Origin: Deltaproteobacteria bacterium
Lineage (GTDB): Bacteria; Desulfobacterota; Syntrophia; Syntrophales; UBA8958
DNA: 56,580 nt
Assembly (NCBI GenBank): GCA_026388335.1
Contig: JAPLJZ010000012.1
Location: 1 to 56,580 of the forward strand
Direction of reading: 5' to 3'
Shown here: positions 41,597 to 56,305 of the stretch, piece after piece
Layout of the letters: every line of letters starts with the position of its first letter
Position numbering within the stretch: position 1 is the stretch's first letter
Translations under genes and position numbers: made by a program
The notes under the pieces: model-generated
Seen by the model: only the letters and a program-made list of their open reading frames with translations
Told to the model about the DNA's origin: nothing
Database searches by the model: none

Positions 41597-42715
41597 CTAC
41601 TTCTTGATCGTATATTCGACTGCGGCCTCGACCCGGCGGTTCTTTTGCCGGCCGGCCGCCGTCTTGTTGCTGGCGATTGGTTTGGACATGCCATAACCCT
41701 TTGAAGTTAGATGCGTCTTCTTGACGCCAAAATGCTCGATGATGTACGCTCGCACCGCTTCGGCACGCCGGGCGGAAAGATTCATGTTGTAACCTTTGCC
41801 GCCGACATTATCGGTGTGACCCTCGATTACCATTTTCAACTCCGGGTTAGCCGCCATGACATCGCCAATTTTCTTCAACTCTTGATGATACCTGGGTTTC
41901 ACATCGTATTTATTATAATCGAATTCGATATCTATCTGCACCCGGCCCTTTTCCAGCATTTCCTTCGATACGGAGGCCGCCGCTGTCGCATCCATCTTCT
42001 TAAATGCAAACACCTGCTCCGTACCTTCAGCGCATGCCTGGTTGCTCTTTTCCGACTCCTTGCCCGTAGTGTCCACAGCCGTGACCTGATAACAATATCG
42101 GCCCGCCTCTCTCAGGTCCTTATCGGGAACAGACGTCGCGGCAGTGGAGGTCATCAGGTAGAGACCGTCCCGATACACTTTATATCCCAAGGCACCGTCC
42201 ACAGGATTCCAGCTCAGATTGATCTGAGTTTCCGACGACGCCGTTGCCGTCAGTACGAGTGGTCCCAGCGCCGCCTTGGGAGTTTCCAGTGTCGTTGCAC
42301 AGGCCTGCTTACTCTGTTCCGACTCCTTGCCCGCAGCGTCCACGGACGTGACATGGTAACAATGGCGGGTCGCCCCATTCAACCCGGAGTCTGAGAGATG
42401 GGTGGCAGGATTGGCGGTGAGGTATTTTCCGTCCCGGTAAATCCTGTAGTTTGCAGCCTTCGATACGGCGTTCCAGGACACTTTGATCAGGGAGTCAGAA
42501 ACAGCAGAAGCTGAAATCTCTGTCGGCGCCACTGGGAGCGATAAAGACGACGCCGGGGTTTCCTGGTCGAAAAGACCGCCAAAATCGAATTTCCACGCCA
42601 AATTCATATTTGAATCGATTGTTCTTTCCCCAAGAGGCATTTTGGCAGAGACCCCCGAACAGAGAACAACAAGCAGGAAAAGAGCGCCCATGATAGGGTG
42701 GAACGCTTTTCTCAT
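41597..42715 (-). CDS. OmpA-family protein with two fibronectin type III domains
   Basis: About 372 residues: signal peptide (GALFLLVVLCSGVSA), two fibronectin III-like domains (~50-140 and ~145-235; both contain a 'Y.V..VD..GKESE.S.' core), and a C-terminal OmpA/Pal peptidoglycan-binding domain (~265-370; MVIEGHTDNVGGKGYNMNLS, RRAEAVRAYI, GYGMSKPIASN). The ATG with GAAAGGAG upstream is chosen over an in-frame GTG seven codons earlier. It anchors to peptidoglycan from the outer membrane or periplasm and displays adhesive-type domains. First gene of the leftward operon. Confidence 0.88.
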   Translation of the reverse strand: MRKAFHPIMGALFLLVVLCSGVSAKMPLGERTIDSNMNLAWKFDFGGLFDQETPASSLSLPVAPTEISASAVSDSLIKVSWNAVSKAANYRIYRDGKYLTANPATHLSDSGLNGATRHCYHVTSVDAAGKESEQSKQACATTLETPKAALGPLVLTATASSETQINLSWNPVDGALGYKVYRDGLYLMTSTAATSVPDKDLREAGRYCYQVTAVDTTGKESEKSNQACAEGTEQVFAFKKMDATAAASVSKEMLEKGRVQIDIEFDYNKYDVKPRYHQELKKIGDVMAANPELKMVIEGHTDNVGGKGYNMNLSARRAEAVRAYIIEHFGVKKTHLTSKGYGMSKPIASNKTAAGRQKNRRVEAAVEYTIKK

Positions 42716-42859
42716 ATAAAATACTCCTTTCTTCACAAGAATAATCCTTCCGGGATGGGAAAACCGCCTCGACTATAATCCTTAGCCCCTCTTGAGTCAA
42801 TGGAAATGCTATTGCCTATCGTCTACTTTCTATTGGCTGCTCTCCTCTAAGCTCTCTTC

Positions 42860-42917: not shown

Positions 42918-44369
42918 ATGCAGCCGATATTCTCCATCATCAACAATCTCAGAATTCAGGATATTCTTGACATAATCATTGTTTCCCTGATGATCTATGC
43001 CCTCCTCATCTGGTTTAAAGACCGGGCCTCCCGCTTCGTCCTGGTTGGCATCAGCGTGGTCGGCGCCATCTACGTCACAGCGCGTTTCTTCCAGCTCTAC
43101 CTGACCACGGTTGTTCTTCAGGGTTTCTTCGCTATACTGATTTTTGTGCTGGTTGTCATCTTTCAGGAAGACCTGCGCAGGTTCTTCGAACGCCTGGCCA
43201 TTATCGGCCGGTTCGGCAAACAGGTGCGATCCGTCGGCCCTCAACATGAGGAAACGGAAGTGCTTGCGACAACGGCGGCGAACCTCGCCAGAAATCGTAT
43301 CGGCGCCCTGATCGTTCTGGGAGGAGACGACCCGCTGGACAGGCACCTCAGCGGCGGCACAAAACTGGATGGCCTGATCAGTCAGTCCCTCCTCGAAAGT
43401 ATCTTCGACCCCCACTCCCCGGGGCACGACGGCGCCGTCATCATTTACGGGAACCGCATCACCCGTTTTGGCTGCCACCTCCCCCTGTCAACGAATATGG
43501 ACAGGATCGGTGCCACGGGCCTGCGCCATACCGCCGCCGTGGGTCTTGCCGAGCGTTCCGACGCCCTCTGTATCGTCGTATCTGAAGAACGGGGCACAAT
43601 TTCTATCGCCAGGAACGAGAAAATTCAGGCCTTGAGCGGCGCGGCAGCCCTGCAAAACGAATTGGAGACCTTCTATCGGGAAATGTCTCCTGAGAAAGGG
43701 AAGACATCGCGCTTGTCTCAGGAAATCAAGAAGAACACCCGGGAAAAGGTCATCGCCCTGGTGCTGACATGCATCCTGTGGGTTATTTTCGGCTATCAGA
43801 AAGAATCGATCCGCCGCGACTTCCTGATTCCCATTGAATACCCCAGCGTCTCCCGTCAGTACATCCTGGAAGAGCCAAAACTTACGGAAGCAAAAGTGAT
43901 TCTTTCTGGTCCTACCCAGGCATTTCAACTCCTCAACCCGGAAACCCTGAAAATATCGGTGAAATTAGGGGATATTCACGAGGGGAAACAGGCAATCATC
44001 CTCACCCGTGAGATGGTGAAGGCCCCATCCAACCTCACCGTTGTAGCAGTCATCCCCCCGGAGATTACAATTACCGCCTCCCGTTTCGTGTCTGTTTCCA
44101 TCCCCGTTGACGTGCCAACCACGGGAAAGCCCCCCCGGGGAGTCGCCGTCCAGGAAATATCCGTCTCCCCTTCGGCAGTACGGGTCCTCGTCCCCGGCGC
44201 CGCCGCTTCCCAGGGAAAGATCAAGATTCAGACCGAACCGATCGATCTCTCAAAATTGGCCGACCGGACCAGCTTCGAAGTCTCCCTCCGCTATCCGCCG
44301 AATGTCAGGTTCGAGGGCGGTAAGCCGCCCGCCGTAGAGGTAACGATTAAGACGAAGAAAAAGAACTAA
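42918..44369 (+). CDS. cdaA: Membrane diadenylate cyclase (CdaA type) fused to a YbbR domain
   Basis: 483 residues. Three N-terminal membrane segments (~12-80) and the linker IFQEDLRRFFERLA precede the DAC domain (~115-250): LDGLISQSLLESIFDPHSPG, the catalytic DGA at 171-173 (HDGAVIIYGNRI), then GLRHTAAVGLAERSD and VVSEERGTISIA. The usual RHR motif reads Arg203-His204-Thr205. A further membrane helix (~270-290) leads to YbbR-like beta domains (~300-480). In Firmicutes cdaA and the YbbR-type regulator cdaR are adjacent separate genes; here they are one polypeptide. It should make c-di-AMP at the membrane. Its stop overlaps the tamB stop on the other strand by 4 bp. Confidence 0.9.
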   Translation: MQPIFSIINNLRIQDILDIIIVSLMIYALLIWFKDRASRFVLVGISVVGAIYVTARFFQLYLTTVVLQGFFAILIFVLVVIFQEDLRRFFERLAIIGRFGKQVRSVGPQHEETEVLATTAANLARNRIGALIVLGGDDPLDRHLSGGTKLDGLISQSLLESIFDPHSPGHDGAVIIYGNRITRFGCHLPLSTNMDRIGATGLRHTAAVGLAERSDALCIVVSEERGTISIARNEKIQALSGAAALQNELETFYREMSPEKGKTSRLSQEIKKNTREKVIALVLTCILWVIFGYQKESIRRDFLIPIEYPSVSRQYILEEPKLTEAKVILSGPTQAFQLLNPETLKISVKLGDIHEGKQAIILTREMVKAPSNLTVVAVIPPEITITASRFVSVSIPVDVPTTGKPPRGVAVQEISVSPSAVRVLVPGAAASQGKIKIQTEPIDLSKLADRTSFEVSLRYPPNVRFEGGKPPAVEVTIKTKKKN

Positions 44370-47300
44370 TCGAACTCGATCTTGAAAAACAGATCAAGGC
44401 TGCTCTGCTTTCCCGCCTTCGTTTCCACTTCCCAGCGCTTTGTGAAGGAATATTTCATGACGTAGAGGATATCGTCGCTGAACAGGGCTCGCCCCAGACC
44501 GACGTAAAGCTGCGGCGATAAATACTGGCCCACCGTGGAGAGAGAAGTGGTCATATCGGTCCTTCCCTGCTTGGAACGGTTAGGGGAAGTCAATCCCCCG
44601 ATCTCCAGCCCGGCGCTTTTTCTCAGACTGTCTTCGAGACCCACCGACTGTCCCTGGGCAAGGAACATTCCCGCTGATTTCAGTAGTGTCGCGGCCTGGA
44701 TTTTATCGCCGGTGTAACTCGTTCCGAAGACGATATGGGCGAGGACGTCCTGGTCCGACATGGAAGGCACGGAATAGAGGGTCACTATGGGGGTGCGAAT
44801 AGTGCCGGTCACAAGAAAGCCCGCCCGGACATCACCGACCGTCTTGACCGCCAGGATGTCGAGGGAGGCGAGCGGAAAGGGCTTGTCCTTGAAGAAGATA
44901 TGGCCCCTTTCAATAGGAAGTTTGGTATCTGCCGCGTATAGAATTCCCTGGGAAATGTGGATCTCGCCGCGGGTGCGAAGATTGTCCAGAGTTCTGCCGG
45001 CAGCGTTCATCTTGCCGGTAAACTTCCCTTCAATATCCCGGGTTTTCATGAAAACCTTTTCCCCCAGGGTGATGGAGAGATCAATATCCATAACAACAGG
45101 TGAAGATTTCGTTTTTTTTTCTACCCTGTCCATGACCCGGACATCCCGGCTCGTATGGATCATATCGGGTTCTTTGGACTCGGTGTACCGTCCTTCCGGT
45201 ACGTCGATGGCCCCGCGCAGGATCAGGCGCTCAGGGGGGCCCTCGAAAGTGAGCCGGGGATTTGCCATTATTTGGAGCTCCGGAAGATAAGCGGCCTGAA
45301 ACCGCTCCCCGGCCAGGGAACCCTTGACACGTTTTATTTTCCTGTCGCCATACCACAATGTCGTCGTTCCTTTGATACTGCCTGCTCCGGAGCGGGCGGA
45401 TATTTGCTCGACCTCGATCCGATCCTGGTAGAACCTGGCCACAGCGCCCACATCCTCTATGCGGATTCCCGTGGCCAGGATGTAGGCGCCCGCCCGGTCT
45501 AAGCGGACGGTTCCCTGATAGATCGGCGCCTGCCATGATCCGGTCATGGCCAGATCTATGGCAAGCTGTCCGTAGGTTTCCCGAACAGTTCCGGGAAAAA
45601 GGGCGCTAAGCAATCCTTTCTCCCGAAGATCTCCCTTGGCGGCAATGGAAAGAGGGCCTTCTTTGTCTATTTTCAGCGGGATTTGCGCCTTGATCGGCAG
45701 ACTGAATGTGGAGCGGATCTGGCCGTGGTTTGCGAACTTGCTCTCCAGCGTCCCCTGTAGGGCGTCGTCCTGCCAATTCCAGGCAAGGACAAGGCGCTCT
45801 TGGGAAAACTGAACTTTCCCTTTCGGGTAGGCAACGGTCCAGGCTCCTCCCGCAACCGTTGACTGCCCTTTCATGGTAAACCGCTGCTGTGGCAGCAGCC
45901 GGCCTTCCCCCTGTCCGGAGAGACGGCCTTCAGTTTCCAGCGACGGGGGTAGCAAGGGTTTGATAAGTTGAAGATCCATATCCGTAAGGCGCACCTGAAA
46001 GGTCCCTTCCCCGGGAATCGCCCCGGCCGGCGGCGCCGAAGAGGACAATACCGCCGCGACCTTTCCCTTTTCCCCAAAATCGAGGGACTGCCTCATGTCC
46101 AGACCCTTTTCATCCCACCGGATGCGGGTCTGGCCCTCCCGAATGGGCAACTTCCACGTCCCGTGCAATATTTCTCCCTTGACCATCGCCATCCCTGACA
46201 GCCGAAATGGTCCCTTTCCCGGCCACTCAATACGCATCTGCCCGTTGGTCTTACCTTCCATCTCCGTGCCCGCGGCAAGAAGATTCACCCGGCCAAGCTG
46301 GAGATCCCGCCATACGGCCGAAAGGAACTCCTGCTTTTTTTGACCATCCATACGGGCGGCCAATTCCAATTGTTCACCCTGTCGTCCCGTCAAAAGAAGC
46401 GGGGCGAGGGACATGGCATGTCCTGTGGTAACAATGTCCGCCGGCTTGACAATGGTCAAGGGGCCAAAGCGTTTGCTGTCCCAAAGGACATCCTGAATTA
46501 TTCCGGTCCAGACCGCCTGCTGATACGAACCGGCAGCCTGAATGCGCAATCCATTCTCCGGGCTCGTGACCAGCAGATCTGCACGGTGCCTACTTCTCGT
46601 CCCTCCTACTTTCAGCTCGGCCTGACGCCAGGTCGCCCCCCACAGGAGCATATTTTTCGCCGTCACTTGGGCCTTAAGATCCTTATTCCCATCCTCGGTA
46701 AGGGAAAGATCCGCCGTCAAAGATTCGATCGTTGTATGATCAAAAGCGAGGTCTTTCCCCGCGGCGACGAGATTCCCGGAGAGGAGACGGTTGCGGAACC
46801 GGAACCATCCCTGGCCCTGAAATTGCCCTTCCGCCTTGGGCAGGAGGCGAGAGAGCTTTGTAACTCGCGCCTCATAGAGGATACGGTCCCGCGCATCGCC
46901 CCGGGCGCGGACGTGGAACCCGTCTCCCTGCAAGCTCAGGTCGTCAAGATTGAGGCCTTCGTCTTTCCAGCGGGCGTTAACAGTTCCGATCAACTGCTTA
47001 CCCATCAACTGGCTGCTGAGGAACCGACCTTTCACGGCAGCCTCCACTGAAGCTCCCGGGGGCCGCCGCAAGAATCCCTCCAGGTCCGCATTGATGATGC
47101 CCTTCATTTCCGGCACCGCCCGGGAAGGGTCGATATTTCTTGCCTGGAGCGTTACGGTCGCGGCAAGACCTTTTTCCCAGGTGATATTCATACGGCCTTT
47201 GATGGTCCCTTTGCCAAGGTTCATCCGTAGCTCTTCGATGCTTGCCTGACTTTGATCCCCGGAAAAAACACCGGCGGCCTCTCCCGGTTCCCAGGCGGCA

Positions 47301-48283
47301 AAGTACGGCCGCAGGCGGAATTTCCCTTGATAGGAAGAGAGATTACCCGCGATTTCGACGGCCCCGGTAAGACGGCATTCCATACCAGCCTCACGGGTAA
47401 GGTCGAGGTCCTCGGCCCTCACGACCCCCAGAATAACCGGTACGGCTCGGGAAAAATCGACTTTCCCCTCGCCCTTGATGGCGCCCTTACGTTCTCTTTC
47501 CTCCAGAGAAAGGCTCGTGAAAGCGAGGGCATGGCGATCGACGGAAACGCCGCCTTTAAGGGTGAACCGCTCCTTAAGACCGCCGAAGATTTTTGCCGTG
47601 AATGGTCCGTTGACGTACATCGATCCGGAAGGGGCCCGGAGCCGGGCCTGGAACGCTGTCATTGGCCATGAAGACCCTTTCGGTTCGATCTTGACATCAG
47701 CGGCGAGGAAGGGGCTCATAAGGTGGGTCTGGATGGTTCCCGTCATCTTCCCTGCCTCAGCTTCCACAAGCAGGTCGTGGACGCGGGCAAAACCGTAGGA
47801 GTAGTCAACACGACAATCAGCCTTCTGGATAAGGATCTCCCGGCTCCCGCTCCGGTAGGCAAGCCCCCGAATCTCGAGCTGATCGACACGCCCCTGAAAC
47901 CATGACAGCGCTCCCGGTAATCGGGGCCAGGTCAAGTCAATAGGTTCATCGGGCCGACCATCCTGCAGGGAAACCTCCCTCAAAACCAGCTTAGCCAGCA
48001 CGACCTTTCCCAGGGGGAGCTCCCAGGGCCGCCACTGCACGCTCGCCTTTCCGATCGTAAGCCAATGTCCTTTACTAATACTAATAACCCGCAGGTCCCG
48101 AACGGCAAGTTCCGACGCCAGGGTTCCTGAAATCCCGGCGGTTTCTATCCGGGCGGGAACGAAACGAATGAGGCGGGTGACAAGATATTGCGCCCCGGTC
48201 TCGGTATAGAAAAGCCAGACCACGATTCCAGTAAACACGAGGATCGTGGCAAGAAGGGCAAGGGGTACAATCGCTTTTTTCAT
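44366..48283 (-). CDS. tamB: Translocation and assembly module subunit TamB
   Basis: 1305 residues, close to the E. coli size (about 1260). A single N-terminal signal-anchor (ALLATILVFTGIVVWLFY) is followed by a very long repetitive beta structure, the hydrophobic-groove tube of AsmA/TamB proteins. The C-terminal conserved domain (~960-1305) includes GEIHISQGILYAADTKLPIE and DQDVLAHIVFGTSYTG and ends in FKIEFD. It bridges inner and outer membrane and works with TamA in outer-membrane lipid transport and protein assembly. Its start overlaps the tamA stop by 4 bp. Confidence 0.93.
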   Translation of the reverse strand: MKKAIVPLALLATILVFTGIVVWLFYTETGAQYLVTRLIRFVPARIETAGISGTLASELAVRDLRVISISKGHWLTIGKASVQWRPWELPLGKVVLAKLVLREVSLQDGRPDEPIDLTWPRLPGALSWFQGRVDQLEIRGLAYRSGSREILIQKADCRVDYSYGFARVHDLLVEAEAGKMTGTIQTHLMSPFLAADVKIEPKGSSWPMTAFQARLRAPSGSMYVNGPFTAKIFGGLKERFTLKGGVSVDRHALAFTSLSLEERERKGAIKGEGKVDFSRAVPVILGVVRAEDLDLTREAGMECRLTGAVEIAGNLSSYQGKFRLRPYFAAWEPGEAAGVFSGDQSQASIEELRMNLGKGTIKGRMNITWEKGLAATVTLQARNIDPSRAVPEMKGIINADLEGFLRRPPGASVEAAVKGRFLSSQLMGKQLIGTVNARWKDEGLNLDDLSLQGDGFHVRARGDARDRILYEARVTKLSRLLPKAEGQFQGQGWFRFRNRLLSGNLVAAGKDLAFDHTTIESLTADLSLTEDGNKDLKAQVTAKNMLLWGATWRQAELKVGGTRSRHRADLLVTSPENGLRIQAAGSYQQAVWTGIIQDVLWDSKRFGPLTIVKPADIVTTGHAMSLAPLLLTGRQGEQLELAARMDGQKKQEFLSAVWRDLQLGRVNLLAAGTEMEGKTNGQMRIEWPGKGPFRLSGMAMVKGEILHGTWKLPIREGQTRIRWDEKGLDMRQSLDFGEKGKVAAVLSSSAPPAGAIPGEGTFQVRLTDMDLQLIKPLLPPSLETEGRLSGQGEGRLLPQQRFTMKGQSTVAGGAWTVAYPKGKVQFSQERLVLAWNWQDDALQGTLESKFANHGQIRSTFSLPIKAQIPLKIDKEGPLSIAAKGDLREKGLLSALFPGTVRETYGQLAIDLAMTGSWQAPIYQGTVRLDRAGAYILATGIRIEDVGAVARFYQDRIEVEQISARSGAGSIKGTTTLWYGDRKIKRVKGSLAGERFQAAYLPELQIMANPRLTFEGPPERLILRGAIDVPEGRYTESKEPDMIHTSRDVRVMDRVEKKTKSSPVVMDIDLSITLGEKVFMKTRDIEGKFTGKMNAAGRTLDNLRTRGEIHISQGILYAADTKLPIERGHIFFKDKPFPLASLDILAVKTVGDVRAGFLVTGTIRTPIVTLYSVPSMSDQDVLAHIVFGTSYTGDKIQAATLLKSAGMFLAQGQSVGLEDSLRKSAGLEIGGLTSPNRSKQGRTDMTTSLSTVGQYLSPQLYVGLGRALFSDDILYVMKYSFTKRWEVETKAGKQSSLDLFFKIEFD

Positions 48284-50031
48284 AGGGTGAATCCGAATCC
48301 CAGGTGGAGGCGGAACACCGGTTCGGGTGTTCCAATCTGCCTGGCAATGTCCAGTTTTATGGGACCGACGGGGGTATAATACCGGCAGCCGATTCCGGCC
48401 CCTTGGGCAAGGTCCATTTCCCGGAAGCTGTTAAAGGCATTGCCGGCATCATAAAAAGCGGCGGCGCCCCAATCTTTCCAGAGCCTACGTTCCACCTCGA
48501 CGCTTCCGACAAGGGTGTTTTTACCACCCACGACGTTACCCTTGTCATCCTTTGCCCCCAGAGACTGATAGGCATATCCACGCACGCTGTTGTCACCGCC
48601 GGCAAAATACCTGATGGCAATGGGCAGATCCTTCGATCCCTCGTTTTGTAGCGTGGCGCCTGCATTAAGCCTTGTCAGGAGCGAAAACCCCCCGATCAGG
48701 GGATAAAGGCCACTCCCGGTGAGGGTGCCCTGGATAAAACCTGTGTAGGAGCCAAGGTCCTGATGGGTCCCCCTGATTTCCGCCAAATAGGAGAAACCCT
48801 TAGTCGGCTGCACCGGATGGTCGTACTGGCGGTCAAACACGCGGAATCCCGGCATCAGGGAAAAGGTGTTCGTCTTTTGATCGCCGGCGTCGGAATCTTC
48901 CCGCAGCAACTGGAGAAAAATGGCCCCGGACTTATCGAAGAAATAGGGACGGACATGCTGCAGTTCCATGGATAACTCCTTCGTTGTGTAGGTGTCGGTG
49001 TTTTCCCGTTTGAGATTGACTTTGAGGGCCGAGTAAGTCCGGATATCTGCTCCCGGCACCGTATATCCCATGGCAACGCCCTGAAGGACAGGACTTACAT
49101 TCAGCCCCGTATCCCACTGGTGACCGGCGCCGAAGACATTCTTGTCCCGGTAATTGACAGAAAACCGCGGACCCGTATCGGTGCCGTAGCCGCCGCCGAT
49201 TTTCACCTGTTTTTCCGGTAAAGGCGTCAGTTTTATCTCCACAGGAACCCGGTTTTCTTGAGCCTTCTCCTTGTCCGTCTCAATCGGGACATCGGAATAA
49301 CGGTCGGCAAGGGTAAGGTTTCTCTGGGTCTGCCAGATCTTTTCATAAGAGAACACGTCCCCTTCCTTGAATGCAACATACCGGTTAAGAAACCTTTGGG
49401 GATACCCGGGGGCGCCGGAAAAATTGATCTTTCCAAAAAAATATTGGGGGCCGGTCACATAGACGAGATCAATATCCGCACAGGATTGACTAACCAACAC
49501 CTGAATATCGTGGACGGAGAAGCGGCCATTCAGGTAGCCCATACCGATGCTGAGATCGTAAATGCCCCTTTTTGCGTCTTCGTAGACATCATGACGCAGG
49601 ATGTCGCCTTTTTTAAGGGGAAACTTTTCGATGGCATTCCGAAAAGCCGCATTCCCTTCCCCGGGACCCTCGATACGGACAGTTACCCTTCTCACCCGCA
49701 CCGGTTCCCCCGCCGCGACCGTCACGATCACACGGAATATCCCTTCCGGTGTCATTTCCCGAGACACAGTCGCTACGGCATTGTAATAACCGAGGGATTC
49801 GAGGGCTTCCTGTATCTTCCGGGGGATTTGCTCCTGGAAATGATCGAGCCATAAGACATCCACCTTACCATCCTTGACCAGTCCGGCAGGAACGGCCAAG
49901 GCGGCCCTGACGTTTTTCAGCACGTCGCCGTCGACACCCAAAACTTTCAGCTCAACAGACTCCCCGGCAAAGGCGAAAGACGCCGCCAGACAGATGGCCA
50001 TGATCATGATCAGAGGTTTCAGTATATTCAA
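48280..50031 (-). CDS. tamA: Translocation and assembly module subunit TamA (Omp85 family)
   Basis: 583 residues. Signal peptide (IMIMAICLAASFAFAGES), then three POTRA domains (~25-265; second near RVRRVTVRIEGPGEGNAAFR, third near FFGKINFSGAPGYPQRFLNR). The C-terminal 16-strand barrel (~270-583) has YFAGGDNSVRGYAYQSLG, the conserved 'F.GG..SVRGY' lid-loop motif, and DIARQIGTPEPVFRLHLGFG ending in Leu after a Phe-rich last strand. It sits in the outer membrane with TamB. It begins 9 bp after the acetolactate decarboxylase gene. Confidence 0.94.
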   Translation of the reverse strand: MNILKPLIMIMAICLAASFAFAGESVELKVLGVDGDVLKNVRAALAVPAGLVKDGKVDVLWLDHFQEQIPRKIQEALESLGYYNAVATVSREMTPEGIFRVIVTVAAGEPVRVRRVTVRIEGPGEGNAAFRNAIEKFPLKKGDILRHDVYEDAKRGIYDLSIGMGYLNGRFSVHDIQVLVSQSCADIDLVYVTGPQYFFGKINFSGAPGYPQRFLNRYVAFKEGDVFSYEKIWQTQRNLTLADRYSDVPIETDKEKAQENRVPVEIKLTPLPEKQVKIGGGYGTDTGPRFSVNYRDKNVFGAGHQWDTGLNVSPVLQGVAMGYTVPGADIRTYSALKVNLKRENTDTYTTKELSMELQHVRPYFFDKSGAIFLQLLREDSDAGDQKTNTFSLMPGFRVFDRQYDHPVQPTKGFSYLAEIRGTHQDLGSYTGFIQGTLTGSGLYPLIGGFSLLTRLNAGATLQNEGSKDLPIAIRYFAGGDNSVRGYAYQSLGAKDDKGNVVGGKNTLVGSVEVERRLWKDWGAAAFYDAGNAFNSFREMDLAQGAGIGCRYYTPVGPIKLDIARQIGTPEPVFRLHLGFGFTL

Positions 50032-50040
50032 ATAATCTCC

Positions 50041-50793
50041 CTATTCCTGTTCAGCCTTCTGTAAATCCTTTCTCGTATCCCGACTCAGGTCCGCAGTGAG
50101 GTAATCGAGGGTCACCGGCAAGGCTACTTCCAGGAGCGGGATATGCTGCATGCCAATCCGGGCAGACTGTATGGCGCAAGAGAGAAGATGCCCTCCCTGG
50201 CGTCGGTCGTCGCTGATAAAATGAAGATGATACCCCGGGGCATTAAGAGAAGGCATGAACGGAGGCGTGTAAAAACCGGACAAGGTCCCGGCGATGTCAT
50301 AAAAATCAAAAACAACCTGATCCTTCGTCGCCTCGACGAGGGGACGGTAATTTTCCTGTTTCGGCACGGAGCGGGTCCGGACATGGGAAAAGCGGCCATC
50401 GATCCTGATCGCGTAGAGCATATTCGGCGAGGGGAGAAGCCGCTCCAGCAATGAATTGAAGGTTTCATAGGGAAGATGGGAAACCTGTCCCCTTGAGATC
50501 ATAGCTGCCTCGTTGATCTCATCGAATGTTTCGGGCTGATAAAACGTCACACAGGCAAAAGGCGTCAGAATGTCATCAGCAACGACGACCACTGTTCCGT
50601 CCGCGGCGACCTGATAGACGACACCGTCCAGGACAACCATTTCGCCGTCCAGATCGTTAAAGGTTCCCAGGCCGAAGTCGCCATGTGTCCTGACCTCGCC
50701 GATCGTGATGTTCTGCTCGTAATACCCCTCCACCAAGACATTGATGGGTGTGGAAATATAGACGCTGTTGGGGCGTAGATTCTTTTCTGACAT
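50041..50793 (-). CDS. budA: Alpha-acetolactate decarboxylase
   Basis: 250 residues, normal length. DFGLGTFNDLDGEMVVLDGV and the zinc site GYHLHFISDDRRQGGHLL (three His ligands) are diagnostic; RTRSVPKQENYRPLVEATK holds active-site Arg and Glu. The enzyme converts 2-acetolactate to acetoin, diverting carbon from branched-chain amino acid synthesis. Its ATG overlaps the stop of a small upstream ORF (TAATG). No acetolactate synthase or butanediol dehydrogenase is adjacent. Its link to tamA-tamB is only positional. Confidence 0.93.
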   Translation of the reverse strand: MSEKNLRPNSVYISTPINVLVEGYYEQNITIGEVRTHGDFGLGTFNDLDGEMVVLDGVVYQVAADGTVVVVADDILTPFACVTFYQPETFDEINEAAMISRGQVSHLPYETFNSLLERLLPSPNMLYAIRIDGRFSHVRTRSVPKQENYRPLVEATKDQVVFDFYDIAGTLSGFYTPPFMPSLNAPGYHLHFISDDRRQGGHLLSCAIQSARIGMQHIPLLEVALPVTLDYLTADLSRDTRKDLQKAEQE

Positions 50794-51012: not shown

Positions 51013-52083
51013 ATGCGGAAAAATTACCGGACAAGAATTGCGAAAACCGGGCTCCCCCCGGGGTCTCTGGTCCATGTCGGGGAAAGGCATACCGAGCAGC
51101 CGCTGCTCTCCCTGATGGTTTACAACGATCAGGAGGTTAAGGAAAAGACGCTGACAGGCATCGAGGAATGCCGCGGCCTTCAGGAGCAGTCGGAGGCTGT
51201 TACCTGGCTACACGTCGAGGGGCTTCATGATATCGGCCTCATGGAAAAGTTGGGGGACCTTTATCATCTCCATCCCCTGACCCTCGAAGACATCCTCTAT
51301 ACCGACCAGCGTCCCAAAATGGAGGACTTCGGCAACTACATCTATATCGTCCTGAAGGACTTTTCTTTACCACCGGAAACGGGAGGACAGCTTCTGCCGG
51401 AACAGATCAGTATTGTCTTCGGTCCCCATTTTCTTATTTCCTTCCAGGAAAAGCAAAGCCCCCTCATGGAACCGATCCGGGAAAGAATCCGCGACGCCCG
51501 GGGCAGGATCAGAAAGGCCGGCGCCGATTACCTTGCCTATACCATCATCGACACCATTGTTGATCAATATTTCATCCTCCTCGAAAAGTTGGGAGAAAAT
51601 ATCGAATCCCTGGAAGATCAACTTGTCACCAGCCCGGGGCGAGATACCCTGCTTGCCATCCAGAACATCAAACGGGAAATGCTTTATCTAAGAAGGTCCG
51701 TCTGGCCGCTACGAGAAGCGGTTAGCGCGCTCCAGCGGACCGATTCACCCCTCATGGACGCCACAACCGATCTATATTTGAAGGACGTCTACGATCATAC
51801 CATCCAACTTATCGATACCGTAGAAACTTACCGGGACATGCTCTCCGGCATGCTCGATATCTATCTGTCTTCGGTGAGCAACCGGCTCAATGAGGTGATG
51901 AAGGTGCTGACCATTATCGCCACGATCTTCATGCCCCTGACTTTTCTGGCCGGGGTTTACGGCATGAATTTCAAGTATATGCCCGAGCTGGAATGGCATT
52001 GGGGATATTTCATGGTGTGGGGAATCATGATTACCGTCGCCCTTTTCATGGTCCTCTTTTTTAGAAGAAAAAAGTGGTTGTGA
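51013..52083 (+). CDS. corA: CorA-family magnesium/cobalt channel
   Basis: 356 residues. The long cytoplasmic funnel domain (WLHVEGLHDIGLMEKLGDLY, HPLTLEDILYTDQRPKMEDF) leads to two C-terminal membrane helices. YGMNFKYMPELEW carries the GMN selectivity motif, and the basic tail FRRKKWL matches CorA's end. It forms a homopentameric Mg2+ channel in the inner membrane. AAAGG precedes the ATG. Divergent from the small ORF and budA. Confidence 0.95.
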   Translation: MRKNYRTRIAKTGLPPGSLVHVGERHTEQPLLSLMVYNDQEVKEKTLTGIEECRGLQEQSEAVTWLHVEGLHDIGLMEKLGDLYHLHPLTLEDILYTDQRPKMEDFGNYIYIVLKDFSLPPETGGQLLPEQISIVFGPHFLISFQEKQSPLMEPIRERIRDARGRIRKAGADYLAYTIIDTIVDQYFILLEKLGENIESLEDQLVTSPGRDTLLAIQNIKREMLYLRRSVWPLREAVSALQRTDSPLMDATTDLYLKDVYDHTIQLIDTVETYRDMLSGMLDIYLSSVSNRLNEVMKVLTIIATIFMPLTFLAGVYGMNFKYMPELEWHWGYFMVWGIMITVALFMVLFFRRKKWL

Positions 52084-52136: not shown

Positions 52137-52616
52137 ATGGGCGCTTTCAGAGGCAGTGACATTGTGGAAATTGCCGTGCGTATCGAGGAGAACGGGGAAC
52201 ATTTTTATCGCTATGCAATGCAGTTGGCCAAAGACGAGGATGCGAAGAAGATATTCAGCGATCTGGCGGACGCAGAGTTTCAGCACAAAAAGACCTTCAG
52301 CAGGATCTTTGCCGCCATGGACAAGGACAATCCCCCGGAGACCTACGATGGGGAATATGCAGCCTACCTGCACGATTACGTGGACAACAAGATCATCTTC
52401 AAGAAGGGTATGCTGGAAGCGGAACTGGCCAAGGTAAAGGATACCCTGGCGGCAATTGATTTCGCCATGCAGCGGGAGCTTGATTCCATCCTATATTACC
52501 ATGAAATCAAACGCTTTGTTTCTGCAAATGAACATGCCGTCATCGACGACGTGATCGAAGAAGAAAGAAAGCATTTCAAGGGGTTGTCCAACTTGAGAAC
52601 CCGTTACGCAAAATAG
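52137..52616 (+). CDS. Ferritin-like diiron protein (rubrerythrin-related)
   Basis: 159 residues forming a four-helix bundle. Iron ligands are likely in IEENGEHFYRYAMQL, DAEFQHKKTF, MQRELDSILYYHEI and EERKHFKGL, i.e. two E(x)nE..H sets. It lacks the rubredoxin tail of classical rubrerythrin. Such proteins reduce peroxide or store iron in anaerobes. GAGGAGG stands 6 nt before the ATG. It is followed after 5 bp by the aminotransferase gene. Confidence 0.85.
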   Translation: MGAFRGSDIVEIAVRIEENGEHFYRYAMQLAKDEDAKKIFSDLADAEFQHKKTFSRIFAAMDKDNPPETYDGEYAAYLHDYVDNKIIFKKGMLEAELAKVKDTLAAIDFAMQRELDSILYYHEIKRFVSANEHAVIDDVIEEERKHFKGLSNLRTRYAK

Positions 52617-56208: not shown

Positions 56209-56245
56209 ACAGAACAGACCAGGGATAGCGCGACGGCGCGACAAG

Positions 56246-56269
56246 CAGGGGGAACCCCTCCCCTGTTTT
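56246..56269 (+). terminator. Possible terminator after the integrase
   Basis: A 6-bp stem CAGGGG/CCCCTG with an 8-nt loop is followed by TTTT, about 40 bp after the integrase stop. Short stem and short T-run make it moderate. Confidence 0.45.
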
Positions 56270-56305
56270 CCTGGGTCACTAAGGGGACTAAGAGAGGGAA
56301 GGACG

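Follow-up and report, generated by a model that had tools for sequence, protein, structure and literature searches.

A CdaA-type diadenylate cyclase domain joined to YbbR repeats in a Syntrophales genome: a widespread fusion with a subfamily-specific RHR variant and a recurrent corA neighbourhood

The locus and its protein

The window, i.e. the whole stretch of 56,580 nucleotides analysed here, is the entire contig C19 of a 4.06-Mb Syntrophales assembly (completeness 98.9%, contamination 4.9%). Three named relatives, at 89–94% protein identity, are labelled Syntrophus (two) and uncultured delta proteobacterium (one); NCBI places Syntrophus in the class Syntrophia of the phylum Thermodesulfobacteriota, which are presumably the class and phylum surveyed below. 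A gene with an ATG start at positions 42918–44369 of the forward strand encodes 483 amino acids. Its CdaA_N membrane domain (residues 9–86, 42942–43175, forward; PF19293, 31.4 bits against a cut-off of 23.8) precedes a DAC catalytic domain (residues 119–235, 43272–43622, forward; PF02457, 128.7 bits against a gathering cut-off of 27), behind which follow a fourth membrane helix, read from the sequence at residues ~278–293 (43749–43796, forward) with a basic N-terminal side, and two YbbR repeats. The second repeat (residues 395–477, 44100–44348, forward) scores 31.9 bits with PF07949 against a cut-off of 22.3, and the first (residues about 296–392, 43803–44093, forward), which Pfam misses, aligns with stand-alone YbbR in hhalign at a probability of 98.9. 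The open reading frame thus bears out an earlier, sequence-only reading, which had proposed a fusion of these very parts and, with it, a physical link between stimulus and synthesis across the membrane; synthesis and a probably periplasmic YbbR arm do indeed reside in one chain.

The individual assignments differ in how they were reached. A 19-residue hydropathy scan picks out residues 11–90 only, and the shorter stretch at ~278–293 stays below its pass mark; it is covered by the profile alignment with stand-alone YbbR proteins of the same phylum, which runs from residue 270 onward over 209 columns (probability 99.9). The two YbbR halves match each other weakly in an internal comparison (probability 19.8), Pfam calls two YbbR stretches in the related fusions L021, L044 and L084, and some stand-alone YbbR proteins have further weak matches beyond the region aligned to the fused arm. 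The NCBI equivalog model for CdaA, TIGR00159, covers residues 13–255 with 180.6 bits, under its curated cut-off of 188.8, and the solved structures with the best sequence matches are diadenylate cyclases, CdaA included. The protein has the CdaA_N–DAC order and the DGA motif of a CdaA, together with YbbR repeats behind a membrane anchor read from the sequence, while its RHR motif reads RHT. A structure model built from the window protein and three relatives has a mean pLDDT of 34.1 and is of no use for topology or active-site geometry.

Divergent from the fused gene, at 41597–42736 on the reverse strand, lies a gene for an OmpA-family protein with fibronectin-type matches, which is seen at L034–L036 too. 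Close to the contig end, at 56218–56286 of the forward strand, the Rfam int-alpA RNA (RF02996) is matched with 40.1 bits.

Other c-di-AMP genes in the genome

The fused gene carries the one YbbR match of its genome and one of two DAC matches. The other DAC belongs to a CdaZ-like protein of 288 amino acids (L002, positions 1045–1911, contig C3 of genome G000) composed of DacZ_P and DAC, with RHI in place of RHR. The cdaA-ybbR-glmM neighbourhood was not found here, as YbbR is fused and glmM lies on a separate contig, behind a gene read as pyrG. A PgpH-like 7TM-HD protein is present in two pieces at contig ends, and one DHH-DHHA1 protein is encoded in addition to RecJ; both were counted in favour of a c-di-AMP cyclase. 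Counted against it were the TIGR00159 score below cut-off, the failure of a search of this genome to find a c-di-AMP riboswitch, and the finding that 46 of 78 loci of the class lack corA as the immediate neighbour (see below).

Distribution, selection and phylogeny of the fusion

DAC-YbbR fusions, for which the sequence-only reading had suggested a domain-order search, prove to be widespread. Counting the genome of the window itself, 27 of 41 near genomes contain a full-length fusion; one of these has an in-frame TAA (L016) and one is of a distant RHR type (L030). A search of the class at E<=1e-20 gives matches in 117 of 155 genomes, nearly all of them fused and some cut by contig ends; also seen are a stand-alone CdaA-sized open reading frame (G324), a DAC-only match (G012), a second, distant fusion (G307) and a distant RHR type (G027). 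At the level of the phylum, where the threshold was E<=1e-6, a CdaA-like match is found in 161 of 198 genomes, which does not agree with the earlier view that a c-di-AMP system is unusual in deltaproteobacteria. Eighty regions sampled from the phylum contain 55 fusions and 25 stand-alone DACs, a ratio that does not reflect frequency because the regions were chosen by hand in favour of long matches. Eight genomes (G054, G091, G208, G095, G102, G191, G136 and G132) combine a fusion with a stand-alone membrane DAC, and three (G096, G173 and G141) encode two fusions. In 26 chosen fusions, Pfam calls DAC in all 26, CdaA_N in 23 and YbbR in 21. Comparison of the window gene with two relatives gives dN 0.030 against dS 0.172 and dN 0.045 against dS 0.252, i.e. 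a dN/dS of ~0.17 to 0.18 over the full protein; for the DAC domain the two values are ~0.16 and ~0.23. With relatives in near genomes and under purifying selection, the fused gene is more than a product of chance.

Two trees were built without L005–L007 and the four CdaZ-like rows; the careful tree of 95 rows, drawn from the membrane and DAC columns with columns 169 and 205 left out, additionally omits eight near-duplicates. In this careful tree, fusions and stand-alone CdaA proteins are split with 100/100 support. Fusions with T, A, S, G or M as the third residue of the RHR motif occupy one side of a branch (100/97), as do those with RHH (100/99), and the RHR fusions do not form one clade. 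The first two groups share a side of a branch at 91/95, but an alternative that places RHH elsewhere is not rejected (p-AU 0.161); a quick tree of 103 rows shows one loss of Arg205, but there a constrained tree with RHH elsewhere scored higher. A single origin of the Arg205 loss is accordingly likely rather than proven. Similarly, one fusion event within the phylum is the simplest reading of an unrooted tree drawn from one phylum only, which falls short of proof.

Relation to known cyclases

Firmicutes-type CdaA/DacA, working with CdaR/YbbR and GlmM, shares with the window protein the CdaA_N helices, the DAC domain, a membrane-anchored YbbR partner, the HDGA motif and the RH core. The window protein differs from it in being one polypeptide, in having no glmM beside it, in staying under the TIGR00159 cut-off and in the changes of Arg205, Tyr187 and Thr202. 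It also has two YbbR repeats, where CdaR proteins from lactic acid bacteria are described as having three or four (PMC10243994). According to the text of the same paper, some streptococci have CdaA joined to CdaR (UniProt A5LQF8, E1M7C3 and V8IIN0), so the fusion as such is already in print. Judged by that description alone, these proteins likewise unite CdaA and CdaR, whereas the fusion described here is the norm across an entire class, is widespread in a phylum and includes a subfamily with Gly169 and without Arg205. The titles and abstract openings of the literature searched do not mention the fusion, nor do the passages of PMC8316131 that contain YbbR or 'fused'. The same literature, represented mostly by titles and abstract openings, yielded nothing on the Gly169/non-Arg205/basic-187 subfamily, on its linkage to corA or on the peptidoglycan-binding tails described below. 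A survey by Galperin from 2023, 'All DACs in a row' (J Bacteriol 205:e0002323), to go by its title covers DAC domain architectures and may list the DAC-YbbR fusion.

Within the phylum, stand-alone CdaA proteins are homologous to the fusions in their membrane and DAC regions, and all 25 carry RHR. A YbbR protein is encoded beside 24 of these 25, and their neighbours, as read from the sequence, include ftsH (17 loci), glmM (16) and folP (11). By contrast, none of 81 fusion loci, part of them with just ~1.5 kb of flank, lies in an ftsH/folP/glmM cluster. RHR-type fusions of the phylum have the same architecture as the window protein and fall on the same side of the tree, but possess Val, Leu, Ala, Ile or Thr at position 169 (36/36) and have corA beside none of the 36. 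CdaZ/DacZ has in common with the window protein a DAC without RHR, but reads RHI, bears a DacZ_P sensor domain instead of CdaA_N and is a separate gene.

A remodelled active site

In the 483-residue translation, HDGA (residues 170–173) is preceded by Gly169 (together 43422–43436, forward), the marker of the subfamily, and the canonical T-RHR reads Leu202-Arg203-His204-Thr205 (43521–43532, forward); an intact DGA and an RHT were what the sequence-only reading had reported. His187 (43476–43478, forward) stands where Listeria CdaA has its adenine-stacking Tyr187, and Ser222-Glu223-Glu224 (43581–43589, forward) belongs to the conserved core. Is RHT, then, an oddity of a single protein? An alignment of 110 DAC domains, of which 106 are CdaA-type and four CdaZ-like, argues otherwise; L016 was left out of it because of its in-frame TAA, and so were the repeat loci L001, L003 and L034–L036. 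Gly169 is present in 45 of the 110, all of them fused and all devoid of Arg205 (33 RHT, seven RHH, two RHA and one each of RHM, RHG and RHS), and the remaining 61 CdaA-type domains, 36 fused and 25 stand-alone, lack Gly169 and read RHR throughout. At the RHR position the CdaA-type domains thus divide into 61 with RHR and 45 without, the window protein among these. The four CdaZ-like domains have Ala at 169 and RHI, which makes it plain that RHR is not universal among DACs. In a set of 103 rows the changes at positions 164, 169, 184, 187 and 205 occur together, with Asp at 164 in all 42 rows without Arg205 and His or Arg at 187 in the same 42, as against His at 187 in four of 61 RHR rows. Position 202 is Leu in all 31 RHT and RHM rows and Thr in the other 11 rows without Arg205. 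A second set of 89 loci, which overlaps the first, has Gly169 and His187 in every case (LRHT 87, LRHS 1, LRHM 1). The changed motif reported earlier is therefore real, but it is not an isolated peculiarity: along with Gly169 and His187, RHT is the mark of a remodelled subfamily.

Three stand-alone CdaA proteins (L110, L114 and L115) have HDGG for HDGA, and their genomes also encode RHH-type fusions. Position 126, where an Arg docks GlmM, was weighed as a sign that control by GlmM has been lost but was discarded, as it is variable in every group.

As to what these residues do, Tyr187 of Listeria CdaA is reported to stack on the adenine and the main chain of Leu188 to bind it (PMC10167629; PMC11066881), and in the S. 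aureus enzyme Tyr192 and Thr207, the latter just before RHR, are reported to contact base and phosphate (PMC6368335). The earlier suggestion that the third RHR residue contacts phosphate is not confirmed by the S. aureus description, in which the phosphate contact named is the Thr corresponding to Leu202 here. The window protein is consequently changed at two described substrate contacts (187 and 202) in addition to Arg205. Exchange of the whole RHR for AAA is reported to abolish the activity of the DisA-type enzyme of M. tuberculosis (PMC3328451) and of M. bovis CdaM (PMC13022847); as described there, the exchanges hit all three residues and do not isolate the third Arg. The literature searched, seen in part, contained no report of an active RHT protein. 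Nevertheless, His170, Asp171, Gly172, Leu188, Arg203, His204, Ser222 and Glu223 do not vary in any of the 103 rows, and this core, combined with purifying selection, points to an enzyme that is probably active, with retuned substrate handling, rather than dead.

The corA neighbourhood

Some 7 kb from the fused gene lies corA (51013–52083, forward; 356 amino acids, PF01544 with 274 bits), whose product has the GMN motif and fits practically the full 292 positions of the Pfam model (2–292). Behind it follows a rubrerythrin-like gene (52137–52616, forward; PF02915), as in many relatives, and between the fused gene and corA stand tamB, tamA and an acetolactate decarboxylase gene (44366–50793, reverse). 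Genus relatives have tamB-tamA at the same place, and the corA of the window is best read as a separated former neighbour. Among the 78 loci of the class with at least 1150 nt downstream (four shorter loci left out), corA is directly next on the same strand in 32; it follows after one gene in nine, rubrerythrin is next without corA in 13, a corA fragment is present in one, and 23 show none of these. L167, where the corA match spans just 65 residues, is not among the 32. By family codes, corA is next in six of 15 (f5, f10, f14, f16, f17 and f19), is separated by a single gene in f8 and f13, and is not near in the other seven. The gap, measured to the start of the tblastn match and not to a proven start codon, is often a few bases, and seven loci read from the sequence include overlaps. 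At L133, L155, L157 and L158, the only loci where the intervening gene was translated, that gene lies on the opposite strand and was read as a sigma-54-type response regulator.

No corA was found, up to ~3 kb, beside any of the 71 loci from other DAC groups that served as controls (69 with at least 1150 nt downstream), so that the link hinted at by the sequence-only reading is non-random within the class. The controls, however, were drawn from other classes, and among RHT-type loci outside the class corA is present in one of eight, L044 alone; the link thus seems a property of the class more than of the motif. Moreover, the loci counted are related by descent and do not represent independent cases of adjacency, and the linkage may be one of shared descent. 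Titles and abstract openings of literature on c-di-AMP, CorA and magnesium contain no connection between c-di-AMP and CorA.

The arm and its possible input

Two of 29 distinct fusions scanned extend beyond YbbR at the C-terminus; the other 27, the window protein included, do not. L044 (2689–4434, reverse), from outside the class, carries an OmpA-family domain (59.5 bits) at its end, behind two YbbR stretches, and its stop codon is overlapped by corA; L084 (2857–4587), an RHR-type fusion also with two YbbR stretches, has LysM at its end (53.0 bits). Domains of the OmpA family and LysM usually bind peptidoglycan, and such tails suggest that the arm lies outside the cytoplasm with the cell wall as its input. 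For CdaR, the YbbR domains are likewise described as external (PMC10243994). CdaA is reported to need head-to-head pairs of DAC domains and CdaR to act via the N-terminal membrane region (PMC8573169), with effects that are positive or negative depending on the species (PMC9259658). The literature calls the way in which CdaR/YbbR regulates CdaA unclear (PMC8573169), and the signal of CdaR/YbbR unknown (PMC9259658).

Interpretation and alternative explanations

Our preferred explanation, to which we assign a probability of roughly 60%, is that the window protein is a membrane diadenylate cyclase of the CdaA kind whose covalently attached YbbR (CdaR) arm reads the envelope and sets the level of c-di-AMP. 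Three N-terminal helices and the anchor helix of YbbR would hold the DAC domain in the cytoplasm, with the two YbbR repeats in the periplasm, where the arm would read the state of the cell envelope, with peptidoglycan, or the load it bears, as the most likely cue. The arm might then move the enzyme from non-catalytic arrangements to the head-to-head, catalytic one and back, and its covalent attachment could act directly. Ion and metal homeostasis would respond to the resulting c-di-AMP level, CorA being a candidate partner. The active site, with Gly169, His187, Leu202 and Thr205, would be a subfamily variant that most likely still makes c-di-AMP.

But do the substitutions carry meaning at all? 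The protein might be an ordinary CdaA in which the third RHR residue is dispensable, Thr205, Gly169 and His187 are neutral markers of lineage, and corA is an inherited neighbour without functional tie. The RHI of all four CdaZ-like DACs, the reported absence of the stacking Tyr from DisA and CdaS (PMC6368335), the variation of position 187 among RHR enzymes and the near confinement of corA adjacency to one class all speak for such neutrality; we nevertheless consider it unlikely, though not far-fetched, given that Arg205 is kept in 61 of 61 CdaA-type domains without Gly169, that the five changes are coupled and that the gap to corA is often a few bases. The same changes could instead mean loss of function, the DAC domain having become catalytically weak or dead and serving as a membrane sensor that binds ATP or c-di-AMP, with synthesis left to the CdaZ-like enzyme. 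Positions 187 and 202 are indeed substrate contacts, altered along with 205, the genome does encode a second DAC, and in several genomes an RHR enzyme coexists with RHA- or RHH-type fusions; yet a core invariant in 103 of 103 rows and purifying selection on the DAC domain make this sensor very improbable.

Least probable of all, to our mind, is that the remodelled pocket makes another product, or takes another second nucleotide, which acts on CorA. It would account for co-ordinated pocket changes and for the corA linkage, and a CorA relative in type III CRISPR is reported to respond to a nucleotide, SAM-AMP (PMC10600005). However, that CorA is reported to be a divergent one whose N-terminal domain is larger and has a unique fold (PMC10600005), whereas the window CorA fits the Pfam model throughout; and the adenine contacts of Listeria CdaA are reported to be main-chain atoms of Leu188 (PMC11066881; PMC10167629), a residue invariant here. 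A bolder extension of the envelope-reading cyclase is a distinct cyclase branch, present across a Gram-negative phylum, with a built-in, peptidoglycan-facing YbbR arm and a site rebuilt by loss of Arg205 and gain of Gly169 and His/Arg187, whose product directly gates or tunes the CorA encoded in its operon; we hold this to be quite unlikely as a whole.

Returning to the envelope-reading CdaA, its significance is severalfold. In a natural fusion the CdaA–CdaR pair has a set stoichiometry and geometry, and two relatives with OmpA-family or LysM tails point to the cell wall as the input. Which part of RHR is needed for catalysis is put to the test by the coupled loss of Arg205. Recurrent adjacency of corA would make magnesium/cobalt transport a candidate target of c-di-AMP and, should the CorA-gating branch prove true, anaerobes would possess a one-protein signalling line from the cell wall to magnesium.
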